A DNA stretch of 64,000 bases, taken from positions 124,001-188,000 of the forward strand of contig NZ_JACHBD010000002.1 in NCBI RefSeq assembly GCF_014200175.1, in the 5' to 3' direction. The position numbers were made by a program, and so were the translations under genes. The notes under the pieces were generated by a model. That model saw only the letters and a list, made by a program, of their open reading frames with translations. It searched no databases and was not told where the DNA came from. This document shows positions 54,165 to 58,653 of this stretch, piece by piece; position 1 is the stretch's first letter, and the number at the start of each line of letters is the position of its first letter. Source of the stretch: Rhizobium lentis. Its GTDB lineage: Bacteria; Pseudomonadota; Alphaproteobacteria; Rhizobiales; Rhizobiaceae.

Positions 54165-55010
54165 ATGAGTGGATATGAAAAGCAGTTCCTGATTACCGGT
54201 GTCAGCTCGGGCTTCGGCCTCGCTTTTGCGCAAGCCGCATTGGAAAAGGGGCACAAAGTCGTGGGCACGGTGCGAACCGACGAGGCCGCGGTCCGCTTCG
54301 AGAATCTGGCGCCTGGCCGCGCCCTCACCGTTAACCTCGACGTCGCCGATGTTGCGGCGCTCGAACCGATTGTTACGGATATCGAAAGATCCGTCGGTCC
54401 TGTCGACGTGCTCATCAACAATGCGGGTTACGGGCATGAGGGGACGATGGAGGAATCGCCGATCGAGGAAATGCGGCGGCAATTCGAAGCGAATGTCTTC
54501 GGAGCTGTCGCAATGATGAAGGCTGTCCTGCCGTTCATGCGCCGGCGGCGGACAGGCCATATCATCAATATCACCTCCATGGGAGGTTTCATCACCATGC
54601 CGGGCATCGCATATTATTGCGGCAGCAAATTTGCGCTGGAAGGGATAAGCGAGGTTCTTGCAAAAGAAGTGAAAGACTTCGGTATTTCGGTCACGGCGGT
54701 GGCTCCTGGCTCGTTCCGAACCGATTGGGCGGGCCGGTCCATGGTCCGCAGCGGCAGGAGCATTGCCGATTACGATGCGCTTTTTGATCCGATCCGCAGG
54801 GCACGTGAGGAAAAGAACGGCAAACAGGCGGGGGATCCTCGTAAGGCAGCCGCAGCCGTAATGGCGCTGGTCGAGGCGGAAAAACCACCCGTCCATCTGT
54901 TGCTTGGAGCCGATGCCCTTTCGCTCGTCCGCGACAGGCTGAAAAGCTTGAGCGCGGAAATCGACGCCTGGGAAGATCTTACGCTTTCGACGGATTTTGC
55001 CGAAGCATAA
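54165..55010 (+). CDS. Short-chain dehydrogenase/reductase
   Basis: Classical SDR of 281 residues: nucleotide-binding TGVSSGFG (11-18), NNAG (85-88), catalytic S138 and Y151-x3-K155 (YYCGSK). N-terminal acidic residues after the second strand are not decisive for NAD or NADP. It resembles oxidoreductases of the DUF-type 'oxidoreductase, SDR family' with C-terminal extension. Substrate unknown; probably under the divergent LysR regulator. Confidence 0.92.
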   Translation: MSGYEKQFLITGVSSGFGLAFAQAALEKGHKVVGTVRTDEAAVRFENLAPGRALTVNLDVADVAALEPIVTDIERSVGPVDVLINNAGYGHEGTMEESPIEEMRRQFEANVFGAVAMMKAVLPFMRRRRTGHIINITSMGGFITMPGIAYYCGSKFALEGISEVLAKEVKDFGISVTAVAPGSFRTDWAGRSMVRSGRSIADYDALFDPIRRAREEKNGKQAGDPRKAAAAVMALVEAEKPPVHLLLGADALSLVRDRLKSLSAEIDAWEDLTLSTDFAEA

Positions 55011-55011
55011 G

Positions 55012-55029
55012 GGGCGCCCGCAAGCGCCC
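55012..55029. terminator. Hairpin between the SDR gene and argB
   Basis: Stem GGGCGC / GCGCCC (6 bp) with loop CCGCAA between two convergent genes, directly after the SDR stop and before the argB stop. Short, without T run. Confidence 0.45.
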
Positions 55030-55036
55030 TGTTCGA

Positions 55037-55924
55037 TCAGGGAACGATCAGCGTTCCGATGCCGTGCTCGGTAAAGATCTCGAGCAGGACGGAATGGGCG
55101 GTCTTGCCGTTCAGAATGACGACGCCCTGCACGCCGGCCTTGATCGCGTCGATGCAGGTCTCGACCTTGGGGATCATGCCGCCCGAGATCGTGCCGTCGG
55201 CGATCAGCGCATGCGCTTCGGCGACGGAAAGTTCCTTGATGAGCTGACCCTTCTTGTCGAGCACGCCGGGAACGTCGGTCAAAAACAGCAGTCGGGTGGC
55301 GTTCAGCGCGCCGGCAATGGCGCCGGCGAAAGTGTCGGCGTTGATATTGTAAGTCGCGCCGTCGCGGCCAGGAGCCACGGGCGCGATGACCGGGATCATC
55401 TCGGAGCGGGCGAGCAGATCGAGCAGCGTGCGGTCGACTTCGACCACTTCGCCGACAAAGCCGAGATCAAGCACCCGCTCAATGTTGGAATCCGGGTCTT
55501 TGATGGTCTTGCGTGCCTTTTCGGCGAAGACCATGTTGCCGTCCTTGCCGCAAAGGCCGATCGCCCATTCGCCCGTCTGGTTGATCAGCGCGACGATCTC
55601 CTTGTTGATCGAGCCGGCGAGCACCATTTCGACGATCTCGACCGTCTTCTGGTCGGTGACGCGAAGACCGCCTTCGAATTTCGATTCGATGCCCATCTTG
55701 GTCAGCATGGCGCCGATCTGCGGACCGCCGCCGTGAACGACGATCGGGTTGACGCCCGACTGTTTCAGAAGCGCGATGTCGCTGGCAAAGGCCTTGCCGA
55801 GCTCGGGATTGCCCATCGCATGGCCGCCGTACTTCACCACGATCGTTTTATTTTCGTAACGCTGCATGAAGGGCAGTGCCTTGGCAAGAAGCCGTGCCTG
55901 AAGTTCGCTTTCGGTTTCGTTCAT
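55037..55924 (-). CDS. argB: Acetylglutamate kinase
   Basis: Second enzyme of arginine synthesis, phosphorylating N-acetylglutamate; usually feedback-inhibited by arginine and relieved by PII, linking it with GlnD here. It has 295 residues: the phosphate loop [21 protein letters not shown], the [15 protein letters not shown] block and [14 protein letters not shown]. The start is ATG 55924; the upstream open frame is not family-like. The N-terminal helix ([17 protein letters not shown]) is the extension seen in arginine-sensitive, PII-binding enzymes. Confidence 0.95.
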
Positions 55925-56068
55925 GGGAACCCCGCAGAATTGATCGCGGCCTTTTATCGCAAGTTTCTGACAGAGGGAATAATCCAGAGCGCAATAGTTT
56001 TTCGTATGTGGCACGGGGCGGGAGGAGTTCGGTGCGCCGGCTGAGCCAAGCACGATATCAGGAACGGC

Positions 56069-56583
56069 ATGCAAGGCGATGAGATCAAGCACCTGATCGG
56101 CCGCGTCACGCTGGCGACCGTATGGCCTTCGCTGCCCTATACAGCCAGACCGCACCGAAACTTTTCGCAATTTGCCTGCGTATTCTGAAGGACCGCACGG
56201 AAGCCGAGGAGCCCTGCAGGAAGTCTATGTCAATTGGGCGAGCGGCTTGGGCGGTTTCCGGCAACCTCGGAGCCATCCTCGGCATGGTTGGCCGCAATTG
56301 CCGTTGCGTGCACGCAAGCCCGTCGCCGACGAATGCGATAGCATCTGCGATCTTGCCGATACCAACCCGATCCGGAAAGACAGACGGTGAGGAAGGATGA
56401 AGGAAGGCGGATTGACACCTGCATGGAAGAGTTGGAAGCTGATCGTGCGGTCGCCGTGAAACGGGCTTATGTCAAAGGACTGAGCTATCAGGAACTGGCG
56501 GATCAGTTTGGCGTTCCGCTGAACACGATGCGGACCTGGCTCAGGCGCAGCCTCTTGAACTGAGAGAGTGCATGGAACGATGA
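56069..56583 (+). pseudogene. Decayed ECF sigma factor gene
   Basis: Piecing frames together gives [13 protein letters not shown], then [20 protein letters not shown], then [30 protein letters not shown] and finally AVAVKRAYVKGLSYQELADQ with FGVPLNTMRTWLRRSLL: an ECF sigma factor with regions 2 and 4. It needs at least four one-base corrections (near 56113, 56210, 56370 and 56558) and has lost about 20 bases near 56301 between WLAAIA and LRAR, where an RNRAID-type stretch is expected. So this is a true pseudogene. Its restored end overlaps the anti-sigma start as ATGA. Confidence 0.85.
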
Positions 56584-57299
56584 CATCGCCCGACAAAAGC
56601 AAGGGAAATCGCTCCCGCGACGAGGTCCTCGCCGGTGAATATGTATTGGGCGTCCTGTCGCTACAGGATCGCCGGGTAGTGGAAGAGCGCATGCGCCGCG
56701 ACCGCACCTTTGCGGCGATCGTCAGCCGCTGGGAAACCAACCTCTCCGCCTTCAACGACGAATATGACGGCGTCGCGCCGAGCCGGGAAACCTTCAAGCA
56801 GATCGAGGCTCGGTTGTTCGGCGATGCCGGAAAGCCTGCATCCTTTTCGCAGGGGCTGTGGAATTCCGCGGTCTTCTGGCGATCGCTGGCGTTCGCCTGC
56901 ATCGTCGTCGCCGTCAGTGCCGTCATCTTCGCCTCCGGCCTTGTACCGCAGCCGCAGGGGCCGGCACCGCTGGTGGCCGAACTTGCGGGTCAAAACAACA
57001 CGATCAATCTCCGCGCCTCCTACGAGATCCAGAGCGGCCGGCTGAAGATCGTGCCGGTCGCCGCCGGCAAGCCGGAGGAGAAATCGCTCGAACTCTGGCT
57101 GGTGCCGGGCAGTGGCGTACCGAAATCGCTCGGCATCTTCGAGCCCGGCGAAAGCGGTGAACTCGTCATTCCCGCCGATCTGCGCAACAATGTCGCCGAT
57201 GGCGCAACCCTTGCCGTCAGCCTCGAGCCTTTCGGCGGTTCGCTGACCGGACAGGTGACCGGTCCGGTGATCGCAAGCGGCGCGGTGCACCGGCCATAA
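56580..57299 (+). CDS. Anti-sigma factor (RskA type), left without an intact sigma partner
   Basis: Protein of 239 residues: a cytoplasmic N-terminal part with the zinc-less anti-sigma pattern (LAGEYVLGVLSLQDRRVVEERM), one membrane helix (about 98-122) and a periplasmic RskA-like C-terminal domain (SLELWLVPGSGVPKSLGIF). ATG 56580 is used because it overlaps the sigma stop in the normal ATGA manner; GTG 56568 is an alternative. The sigma gene immediately upstream is decayed, but this frame is complete. Either it now regulates another sigma factor or it is awaiting decay. Confidence 0.85.
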   Translation: MTSPDKSKGNRSRDEVLAGEYVLGVLSLQDRRVVEERMRRDRTFAAIVSRWETNLSAFNDEYDGVAPSRETFKQIEARLFGDAGKPASFSQGLWNSAVFWRSLAFACIVVAVSAVIFASGLVPQPQGPAPLVAELAGQNNTINLRASYEIQSGRLKIVPVAAGKPEEKSLELWLVPGSGVPKSLGIFEPGESGELVIPADLRNNVADGATLAVSLEPFGGSLTGQVTGPVIASGAVHRP

Positions 57300-57448
57300 C
57301 GGTGCGTCGGCCGTAAATCAATTTCTCCCTGTCTGAAACTCTTCGGCGCGGCCTTCCGTAGTTCGACATGTCGGATGACGCTCAGGCATGCATGATGCCG
57401 GCTACTGCTTCTTGCGAAGGGTCGGGATCTCACTCCCTTGGGGCAGAT

Positions 57449-57730
57449 CTATTGCGCCGCTTCGGTTTTCGGGAAGACGAGGGAGACACTGCAATTCAAC
57501 ACGATATCAGTCAGCGCTTTCCCTCGACCTGTGGCCGGGAGCCCTGTCAGCCGTTCGAATTCGATGTTGACGTAAATCAGCGTCTCGCAGGTGCCGCCGA
57601 ACTCGAAGACGGCTACCGCGTAGGCGACATGATCGAGAAAGTATCGAAATTGGTCGCCGTCGAGGGCTTCGGTAAGATGGGCCAGGTTGCCGAAGCCCTC
57701 CGGCGATAGGGCTTCGTCTGTGTCAGTCAT
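57449..57730 (-). pseudogene. PAS-domain fragment of a sensor kinase
   Basis: Frame of 93 residues with DGDQFRYFLDHVAYAVAVFE and IYVNIEFERLTGLPATG, like the first PAS domain of rhizobial sensor kinases. The PAS pattern breaks off after about residue 70 and the frame soon stops; shifting frame there would give EGK-like continuation, so it is likely a frameshifted remnant. No kinase domain follows on this strand, and no ribosome site precedes it. Confidence 0.5.
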
Positions 57731-57952
57731 CAATGATTATTCGCGTATGTCGCTGCTCTTCAACAGCATGAGATGACGCGTTGCTTCAAAAACTGCGACG
57801 GCGCAAGCGCAATCAGTATCGCACGTAGTCGACAAGTGGTTTCCCGATGGAGCGACGGTCGATCTCCGCAACCTGCTTGGAATATTTCGATCGACAGGAC
57901 CAATCGAGCAGCGCGGATACAAAAGATCGCGATGTGTTTTAGCGAAGCCTGT
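57731..57952. other. Region with no recognised gene
   Basis: About 220 bp between the PAS fragment and the next small gene. A plus-strand frame near 57820-57950 reads KWFPDGATVDLRNLLG-like without start or known relatives. Possibly degraded coding sequence. Confidence 0.4.
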
Positions 57953-58228
57953 TTATGCTCGATCGTAGGTAAACGATGTCAGCAGCGTCGTGACGAAATT
58001 GCTCGCCCGTTCCTTGACGAGGACTTCCGTCCATTCATCTGTGCCGCGCAGCCGCAAATCGGTGTAAATACTGTCCACGGCCGCCTCTTCAATCCGTTTG
58101 ATATGTGTCTTGAACGACGCCTCGCCCCCGCCGCGATACATATCTCTGATGACCATGCGCAAAATTTCCTGAATGGCGATCTGCCACGCCGTGTTGATCG
58201 ACTGAAGTTCTTTCGCGTCCTCTGTCAT
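57953..58228 (-). CDS. Small protein of unknown function
   Basis: Predicted cytoplasmic protein of 91 residues, not recognised. It is helical in appearance: MTEDAKELQSINTAWQIAIQ, a Gly-rich turn RGGGEAS, then alternating charged and hydrophobic residues ending YDRA. No Cys. The start is ATG 58228 with AGGGAG upstream; longer starts lack a ribosome site and lead into Arg-rich non-protein-like sequence. It sits alone among remnants and small genes. Confidence 0.62.
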   Translation of the reverse strand: MTEDAKELQSINTAWQIAIQEILRMVIRDMYRGGGEASFKTHIKRIEEAAVDSIYTDLRLRGTDEWTEVLVKERASNFVTTLLTSFTYDRA

Positions 58229-58428
58229 TGAGGCTCCCTTTGGTATGAGTGAACTGCCGGCACGGCTCAGGCCGGTACCTGTGCCCTGCTCGTTCAACCG
58301 AACGCATTTTCTCGGGAAAATTCGGCGCCGGCACAACGCTGCGGCGACGCAAAGGACTATTTCCGGGCGGCGGATCACGATGCTTCAGTGCAATCGGCAC
58401 GGCGAGTGTACTTGGCCGCAGTCTTGCG

Positions 58429-58653
58429 TCAGCAGGCCTTGGCGCGCTTGGCAATAAGGGCCGACGTCGCCGACGCCCGGTCGTTGCGTTCCTTGGCAAG
58501 CCGCGCCTCCCGAAGCCGCAACGTCTTCGCCTGGAGGGATTGGGCGTCGGATTCGAGTTCTTCCACCGCCTTGTTCTTTGCGAAGAACTGCGATTGGACG
58601 TTGCCGAAGGCGATCTCGGCTCGCTGGCGTGATTTGCTGTATGTTTGGGTCAT
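58429..58653 (-). CDS. Small Ala/Lys-rich, probably coiled-coil protein
   Basis: Protein of 74 residues, strongly helical and charged (FFAKNKAVEELESDAQSLQ, KTLRLREARLAKERND), ending in basic AKRAKAC. No known family by eye; a coiled coil or nucleic-acid-associated role is possible but unproven. The start is ATG 58653 with GGAG upstream. It follows the cold-shock gene on the same strand after a terminator, so it is probably transcribed separately or by readthrough. Confidence 0.62.
   Translation of the reverse strand: MTQTYSKSRQRAEIAFGNVQSQFFAKNKAVEELESDAQSLQAKTLRLREARLAKERNDRASATSALIAKRAKAC

Follow-up and report, generated by a model that had tools for sequence, protein, structure and literature searches.

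The anti-sigma gene beside argB in the Rhizobiaceae appears to be an independent transcription unit, with its own promoter inside the reading frame of the sigma gene upstream of it, and to keep another function where that sigma gene has been lost. Comparison of sequences leads us to give this reading a probability of about 0.6. The locus lies in a window of 64,000 nucleotides (the whole stretch of DNA that was analysed) from the soil bacterium Rhizobium lentis, whose genome has a completeness rating of 99.99%. Its features are collected in Table 1.

Table 1. Features of the argB-linked sigma/anti-sigma locus, in window coordinates.
Feature	Position	Strand	Remarks
argB (acetylglutamate kinase, named from sequence)	55037..55924	-	divergent neighbour, marks the orthologous locus
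ECF (SigK-like) sigma gene remnant	56069..56583	+	five one-base losses, one 20-base deletion
40-nt element within the dead sigma gene, just before region 4	56402..56441	+	0 differences between the window and L002
putative -35 TTGACA of internal site P1	56412..56417	+	in 145/147 genus loci, 15/15 broken loci
putative -10 GAAGCT of P1	56435..56440	+	in 145/147 genus loci
RskA-type anti-sigma gene, intact	56580..57299	+	239 aa, no internal stop

Loss of the sigma gene

The sigma stretch of the window (locus L001) was compared with that of its nearest intact relative (L002, genome G018), which served as reference for the lesions. The one-base losses fall near 56112, 56210, 56234, 56362 and 56557 and the 20-base deletion near 56302, at the end of region 2. 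None of these six indels is a multiple of three, 51 further substitutions were counted, and the ORF list of the window contains no single open frame spanning 56069-56580. A first-pass annotation of the same DNA had described a pseudogene with one-base losses and a deletion of about 20 bases in region 2, and had held that the damage was no sequencing artefact; we agree on both points, as the lesions are too numerous and too scattered for sequencing error. It also had the restored sigma stop overlapping the anti-sigma gene. This is correct for the ancestral frame, whose TGA (56581-56583) still overlaps the anti-sigma ATG, an overlap also seen among the intact loci listed, but not for the actual region-4 frame of the remnant, which stops earlier, at the TGA at 56561-56563, because the last one-base loss shifts the frame. 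The differences between L001 and L002 number 20, 8 and 23 at codon positions 1, 2 and 3, that is 28 at positions 1 and 2 together versus 23 at position 3, whereas four of five intact pairs showed an excess at position 3 (10/28, 18/41, 4/5 and 10/26 for positions 1 and 2 over position 3). We take this pattern as no more than suggestive, because the fifth intact pair, L002-L009, had no such excess (14/11).

The sigma protein of the intact relative matched Sigma70_r2, Sigma70_r4_2 and NCBIfam sigma models. One of the NCBIfam models, NF008895, a 140-residue 'RNA polymerase sigma factor', covered residues 45-183 of this protein at 301.6 bits (cut-off 259), and may derive from a truncated version of the argB-linked sigma. 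When the same protein was searched against the genome of the window, the broken copy appeared as two overlapping matches, the longer of which had 59% identity and contained two TGA and one TAG internal stops. Ten other matches were 21-32% identical to the lost sigma, and no close second copy of it was present among the matches.

We then considered the 148 genomes of the genus set, in which 147 argB-linked loci were examined; genome G064, matched and not placed, was left out. An argB match adjoined the locus in all 147. The sigma gene was an intact ORF in 132 of them and broken in 15 (L001, L003, L005, L008, L012, L036, L059, L061, L091, L232, L243, L252, L253, L260 and L262). Not one anti-sigma frame was broken, all being within 226-259 codons, and hence no broken anti-sigma gene was seen beside an intact sigma gene among these 147 loci; the first-pass annotation had proposed to look for a stop or frameshift in the anti-sigma gene of sister strains as a sign of decay. 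Broken and intact sigma genes were called by rule (one long sigma match plus a long open frame), and the broken genus loci and the sigma-less loci of other genera were additionally checked by eye, except for L232, and for L008 beyond its alignment. In a tree built from the anti-sigma gene and 285 nt of argB, the broken loci occupied about 14 places, counting separately L001 and L003, which are sisters on the tree and share no indel. L059 and L061 are sisters with similar-looking damage. Two of the 14 losses, in L008 and L232, consist of one small indel each. In L008 (genome G020) the frame is broken by one extra base near codon 20, for which a sequencing error is possible. In L012 an insertion of about 355 bases interrupts the sigma gene; its ends resemble, by eye, long inverted repeats, and it looks like a small non-autonomous element.

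The search was extended to 70 genomes of other genera of the family, which yielded 60 loci, 48 of them beside argB; a locus was counted as not beside argB when the fetched flank contained no argB match. A first set of 40 genomes, 35 with a match, provided 30 loci; all 30 genomes of a second set provided loci. The sigma gene was broken or absent in 14 of the 48 argB-linked loci (L272, L274, L278, L280, L295, L313, L325, L329, L330, L332, L333, L334, L336 and L337), and intact in each of the 12 loci that were not beside argB. The single orphan anti-sigma gene seen by the first-pass annotation is real, but the annotation understated the extent of the phenomenon: sigma loss recurs across the family, and a 40-nt stretch of the sigma gene is kept.

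The anti-sigma gene and the selection acting on it

The anti-sigma frame is open over its 239 codons and carries the RskA_C domain, so that its description as complete stands. The protein matched RskA_C (PF10099) with 65.2 bits (cut-off 29.4) and the NCBIfam anti-sigma model NF052375 with 81.8 bits, under the curated cut-off of 100. An AlphaFold2 model (mean pLDDT 71.1, pTM 0.40) contained helices at residues 9-23, 28-40, 42-61, 69-80 and 97-118. The predicted layout has four cytoplasmic helices within residues 9-80, followed by a single helix of membrane type (97-118), and ends in the periplasmic beta domain, RskA_C. Foldseek returned no PDB match for the model at E ≤ 0.001, nor did phmmer yield one with E up to 1. 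A relative of the protein was present in 148 of 148 genomes of the same genus (E ≤ 1e-10), near full length among the matches listed.

Outside the genus, 12 of the 14 sigma-less loci keep a full-length anti-sigma gene. In the other two, L295 and L337 of genus g106, the sigma gene is gone and the anti-sigma gene ends at codon 124, right behind the membrane helix, with no continuation of RskA_C in three frames downstream; the third g106 locus examined, L313, has an anti-sigma gene of 239 codons. The natural deletion in L295 and L337 suggests that the useful portion is the cytoplasmic one.

Selection was estimated from pairwise dN/dS (Nei-Gojobori). For the 15 broken-sigma loci, each compared with its nearest intact relative, the pooled anti-sigma value was 0.18 (0.15 for the cytoplasmic and 0.21 for the periplasmic part). 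The 132 intact loci, each compared with a near intact relative, gave a pooled value of 0.13 (0.10 cytoplasmic, 0.15 periplasmic) and a median of 0.094. Four pairs apparently share one sigma deletion, and their divergence should therefore postdate the loss. In these pairs the anti-sigma dN/dS was 0.31 for L059-L061 (cytoplasmic part 0.17), 0.24 for L280-L330 (0.22), 0.29 for L325-L333 (0.12) and 0.17 for L329-L332 (0.17). After sigma loss the anti-sigma gene is thus clearly under purifying selection, if slightly weaker than in intact pairs, and the presumed sigma-binding cytoplasmic part fares no worse than the rest. The first-pass annotation, which had proposed dN/dS as a check, had also envisaged that the anti-sigma gene might be decaying. 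This is not what the genus loci indicate, since every frame is open and purifying selection persists, slightly weakened, beside a broken sigma gene.

A conserved element inside the sigma reading frame

Inside the sigma gene, just upstream of region 4, lies the 40-nt element that contains the site P1. In the window the two hexamers of P1 are 17 nt apart and the -10 hexamer is 139 nt from the anti-sigma ATG. TTGACA-N17-GAAGCT was invariant in 145 of the 147 genus loci; the exceptions are two basal ones, L264 and L265 (genomes G145 and G063), which match the third site type described below (TGGC.../TATGAT). In the 15 broken loci the element was free of indels and differed at 19 of 600 sites; its 3' flank differed at 164 of 1654 sites and had 15 gap columns (Fisher P 2.5e-8 for substitutions and 0.016 for gap columns, sites being treated as independent). 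The same contrast among intact pairs gave 29/5280 for the element and 544/14652 for the flank. L091 and L260 keep the element with little else of the upstream sigma gene remaining, and the most diverged copy among the broken loci, that of L262, has 8 differences in 40.

Conservation was also apparent at synonymous sites of the intact sigma ORF, profiled for the first 110 loci only. Across 101 intact loci, synonymous diversity was 0.05 at codons 121-130 versus 0.19-0.52 in all other ten-codon blocks; across 44 close relatives it was 0.00-0.05 at codons 121-150, but 0.04 also at codons 161-180. The codons ATT, GAA, TTG, GAA and GCT of the element are fixed in 145 to 147 of the 147 loci, and TTG and GCT are rare, each representing about 10% of its codon family in anti-sigma genes. 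The genus also contains second, intact sigma/anti-sigma pairs away from argB (L103 in G045, L107 in G071 and L109 in G128), and the element is absent from all three. Protein constraint does not explain the element, because these pairs encode the same kind of protein without that DNA.

A family-wide pattern scan allowing three mismatches found the element in 10 of 394 genomes, eight of the same genus and two of genus g107. A degenerate pattern scanned against public genomes returned 104 stretches, and all of the 80 matches listed belonged to Rhizobium, Rhizobiales or Rhizobiaceae. In 101 of the 104 stretches the pattern is followed, after 168-171 nt, by the start of an anti-sigma match; the remaining three, in which the pattern lies near the stretch end, had no anti-sigma match.

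Three other identities of the element were tried and rejected. Rfam models run on 55000-58500 (E up to 1) gave a single match, at 57697-57737 and far under its cut-off. The element is no repeat, as an 18-nt piece of it occurred once in the window and a 24-nt piece once in the genome, each with up to three mismatches. A sigma-54 geometry (GG-N10-GC) could be discerned by eye, yet in 14 of the 147 genus loci the GG is not kept, CGG being replaced by CGC.

In other genera the place of P1 is occupied by TTGACA-N17 followed by GAAGCT, GATTCT, GAATCT or GATCCT. In the sigma-less loci L274, L295 and L337, from two genera, this block starts between 82 and 137 nt upstream of the anti-sigma ATG and the remaining sigma gene is gone. 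A second site, P2, lies 78 nt upstream of the P1 place in the ORF and reads TTGACG-N17-GATYCT (GATCCT or GATTCT) in genera g71 and g103 and in L317; the P2 block is what survives in six sigma-less loci of genus g45 (at -69 to -143) and in L278. The third site, P3 (TGGC[AG]N-N17-TATGAT), was seen in genera g54 and g75, among others, and persists in L272, L313, L334 and L336. All 29 sigma-less loci, 15 in the genus and 14 elsewhere, retain P1, P2 or P3. In the 14 outside the genus the distance from the start of the site to the anti-sigma ATG ranges from 69 to 259 nt, a variation that a promoter would tolerate. One of the three sites is present in 147 of 147 genus loci and in 26 of 34 intact argB-linked loci elsewhere, the other eight of these having none, and in none of the 15 sigma/anti-sigma pairs for which the fetched flank contained no argB.

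These counts are to be read with the way in which the patterns were obtained. TTGAC[AG]-N17-GA[AT]NCT was derived from the first 30 other-genus loci, 10 of which match it; 19 of the next 30 match as well, but this second set was drawn from seven genera already sampled and is therefore no random test. All site patterns, P3 most of all, were defined after viewing the loci, the 17-nt spacing outside the genus is required by the pattern itself, and the loci are not independent because of their relatedness. When seven sigma genes were resampled synonymously, the P1/P2 pattern arose in 0.7-1.9% and P3 in 0-5.3% of the resamples. The weight of the site evidence lies in the three places within the ORF, together with the retention of one of them in each of several loci that were stripped separately.

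We compared the sites with the sigma-70 consensus. TTGACA is an exact -35 hexamer in 145 of 147 genus loci, and the 17-nt spacer, within the range of 16-18, was found in the window and in 145 of the 147. The -10 hexamer GAAGCT is weak, with two of six positions of TATAAT (the A in second and the T in last place), while TATGAT of P3 has five of six. A consensus scan requiring four of six positions per hexamer detected no promoter in 55900-57500, and the conservation also covers the P1 spacer, beyond plain promoter needs. In S. meliloti, according to a genome-wide study of 7,650 transcription start sites, starts within coding sequences are common, the -10 region of sigma-70 promoters is poorly conserved, and a motif of a conserved TTG plus one downstream A was ascribed to RpoD (PMC3616915). 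The TTGACA hexamer, the constant spacer, the A2 and T6 of the second hexamer, the varying distance to the gene and the survival without the host ORF together make this a promoter-like element, and we think it likely, from these sequence features, that it is the promoter of the anti-sigma gene.

The region between argB and the sigma gene was inspected as well. A stretch near argB, GAGGGAATAAT, was considered as the sigma gene's own promoter and set aside: by eye it is kept in sigma-less loci also and may be argB's own. A block GACAGAGGGAATAAT at 55969-55983 of the window recurs in intact and in sigma-less loci, in some genera as GATGGAATGATC, and is perhaps an argB promoter or leader. There is also a resemblance to GGGAATAA in the mapped promoters of RpoE1/RpoE4 (PMC6180224).

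Explanations and related systems

In the mechanism that we propose, a weak, probably sigma-70-type promoter (in its genus form TTGACA-N17-GAAGCT, 56412-56440) would drive the anti-sigma gene. Being independent of the sigma gene or of a sigma-controlled operon promoter, the anti-sigma gene would not be silenced when the sigma gene is lost, and such losses could occur many times. After each loss the sigma ORF would erode around the promoter, which would stay. Purifying selection on the anti-sigma gene would reflect another job, most likely the holding of another ECF sigma through the cytoplasmic domain, an action that the first-pass annotation had envisaged and that would fit these data. That there is a second ECF sigma target is a guess, made because this domain is kept; counting against it, the other sigma matches in the genome of the window are only 21-32% identical to the lost sigma. 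A more general formulation, that the argB-linked RskA-like protein of the Rhizobiaceae is a stand-alone regulator whose promoter is carried by the sigma ORF at three places depending on the genus, and that this uncoupling made the sigma expendable, is tentative, and we would put it at somewhat less than even odds.

The element may instead be a cis element of another kind: an operator bound by a regulator, the beginning of a small RNA in either orientation, or a site that acts within the sigma/anti-sigma mRNA. This would account for the conservation of the spacer CTGCATGGAAGAGTTG, the weak -10 and the silence of the consensus scan. We nevertheless regard it as unlikely, since TTGAC[AG] followed after 17 nt by an A2/T6 hexamer is found at two positions in the ORF, depending on the genus, the third site combines TATGAT with a weaker -35 at equal spacing, the distance to the anti-sigma ATG varies among sigma-less loci, and neither an Rfam match nor another genomic copy of the 24-nt piece was found. 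A small region-4 protein, translated from an ATG within the gene (at 56423 in the window), could also be what the anti-sigma factor binds, and the window frame from 56423 does cross region 4 down to the stop at 56561-56563. Yet region 4 is, by eye, frameshifted in L001 (last residues), L003, L005, L059, L061 and L091 and largely gone in, for example, L274, L280 and L295, L253 lacks the ATG, and fixation of synonymous sites is not required by a protein, all of which makes such a peptide very improbable.

The anti-sigma gene itself might be a passenger, either because the sigma losses are young and decay is still to come or because local context only has kept it. The few lesions of some loci (one base in L008, one insertion in L012) and the slightly higher anti-sigma dN/dS after loss go in this direction. 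However, L091, L262 and the six g45 loci keep almost nothing of the sigma gene, at a synonymous divergence of 0.2 to above 1, and still have an intact anti-sigma gene with dN/dS of 0.17-0.29; as no anti-sigma frame is broken in the genus either, we hold a passenger to be improbable. Sequencing or assembly error, on which the calls for L008 and L232 do depend through their single small indels, can hardly produce the six lesions and 51 substitutions of the window, the larger deletions and the insertion elsewhere, and a pattern spread over 29 loci of several genera. The independent, internally promoted anti-sigma gene with a function of its own is the reading that we prefer.

The arrangement of the locus, an ECF sigma gene followed by an anti-sigma gene with RskA_C (PF10099), is shared with SigK-RskA of mycobacteria, although the sigma of the intact relative reached 141 bits with the SigK model PRK09646, short of its 226-bit cut-off. 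In the SigK-RskA case of M. bovis it is the anti-sigma factor that is damaged and not the sigma. RpoE1/EcfR1 of S. meliloti and the other ECF26 pairs are rhizobial ECF sigma factors with an adjacent anti-sigma (PMC6180224, whose main text does not mention argB). There too the damage concerns the opposite partner: in the laboratory strain S. meliloti Rm1021 the anti-sigma gene ecfR1 is broken and the RpoE1 targets are highly and constitutively expressed (PMC6180224). The S. meliloti gene rsiA2 has been termed an orphan anti-sigma gene (PMC6180224), but it is no survivor of a lost operon: RpoE2 has two paralogous anti-sigma factors, of which RsiA2 is one (PMC3616915). The internal starts of S. 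meliloti differ from the present case, in which one promoter-like site is conserved genus-wide and outlasts its host ORF. Taken singly, the components are known already: anti-sigma factors of the RskA type, anti-sigma genes that are orphans, and transcription that starts inside genes. In the literature searched, which leaves out most subscription journals, we found no report of recurrent sigma loss with the anti-sigma gene and an internal promoter-like site being kept, and no match for SMc00724, a putative locus tag for an S. meliloti orthologue.

Anti-sigma factors are taken as servants of the neighbouring sigma gene. The pattern repeated across relatives suggests that this inhibitor has a job of its own, that such pairing can mislead, and that 'orphan' anti-sigma genes are not necessarily decaying. 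The sigma-less loci are natural knock-outs in which the other target of the anti-sigma factor may be sought, and the locus offers a case of a promoter that seems to outlive its host gene.
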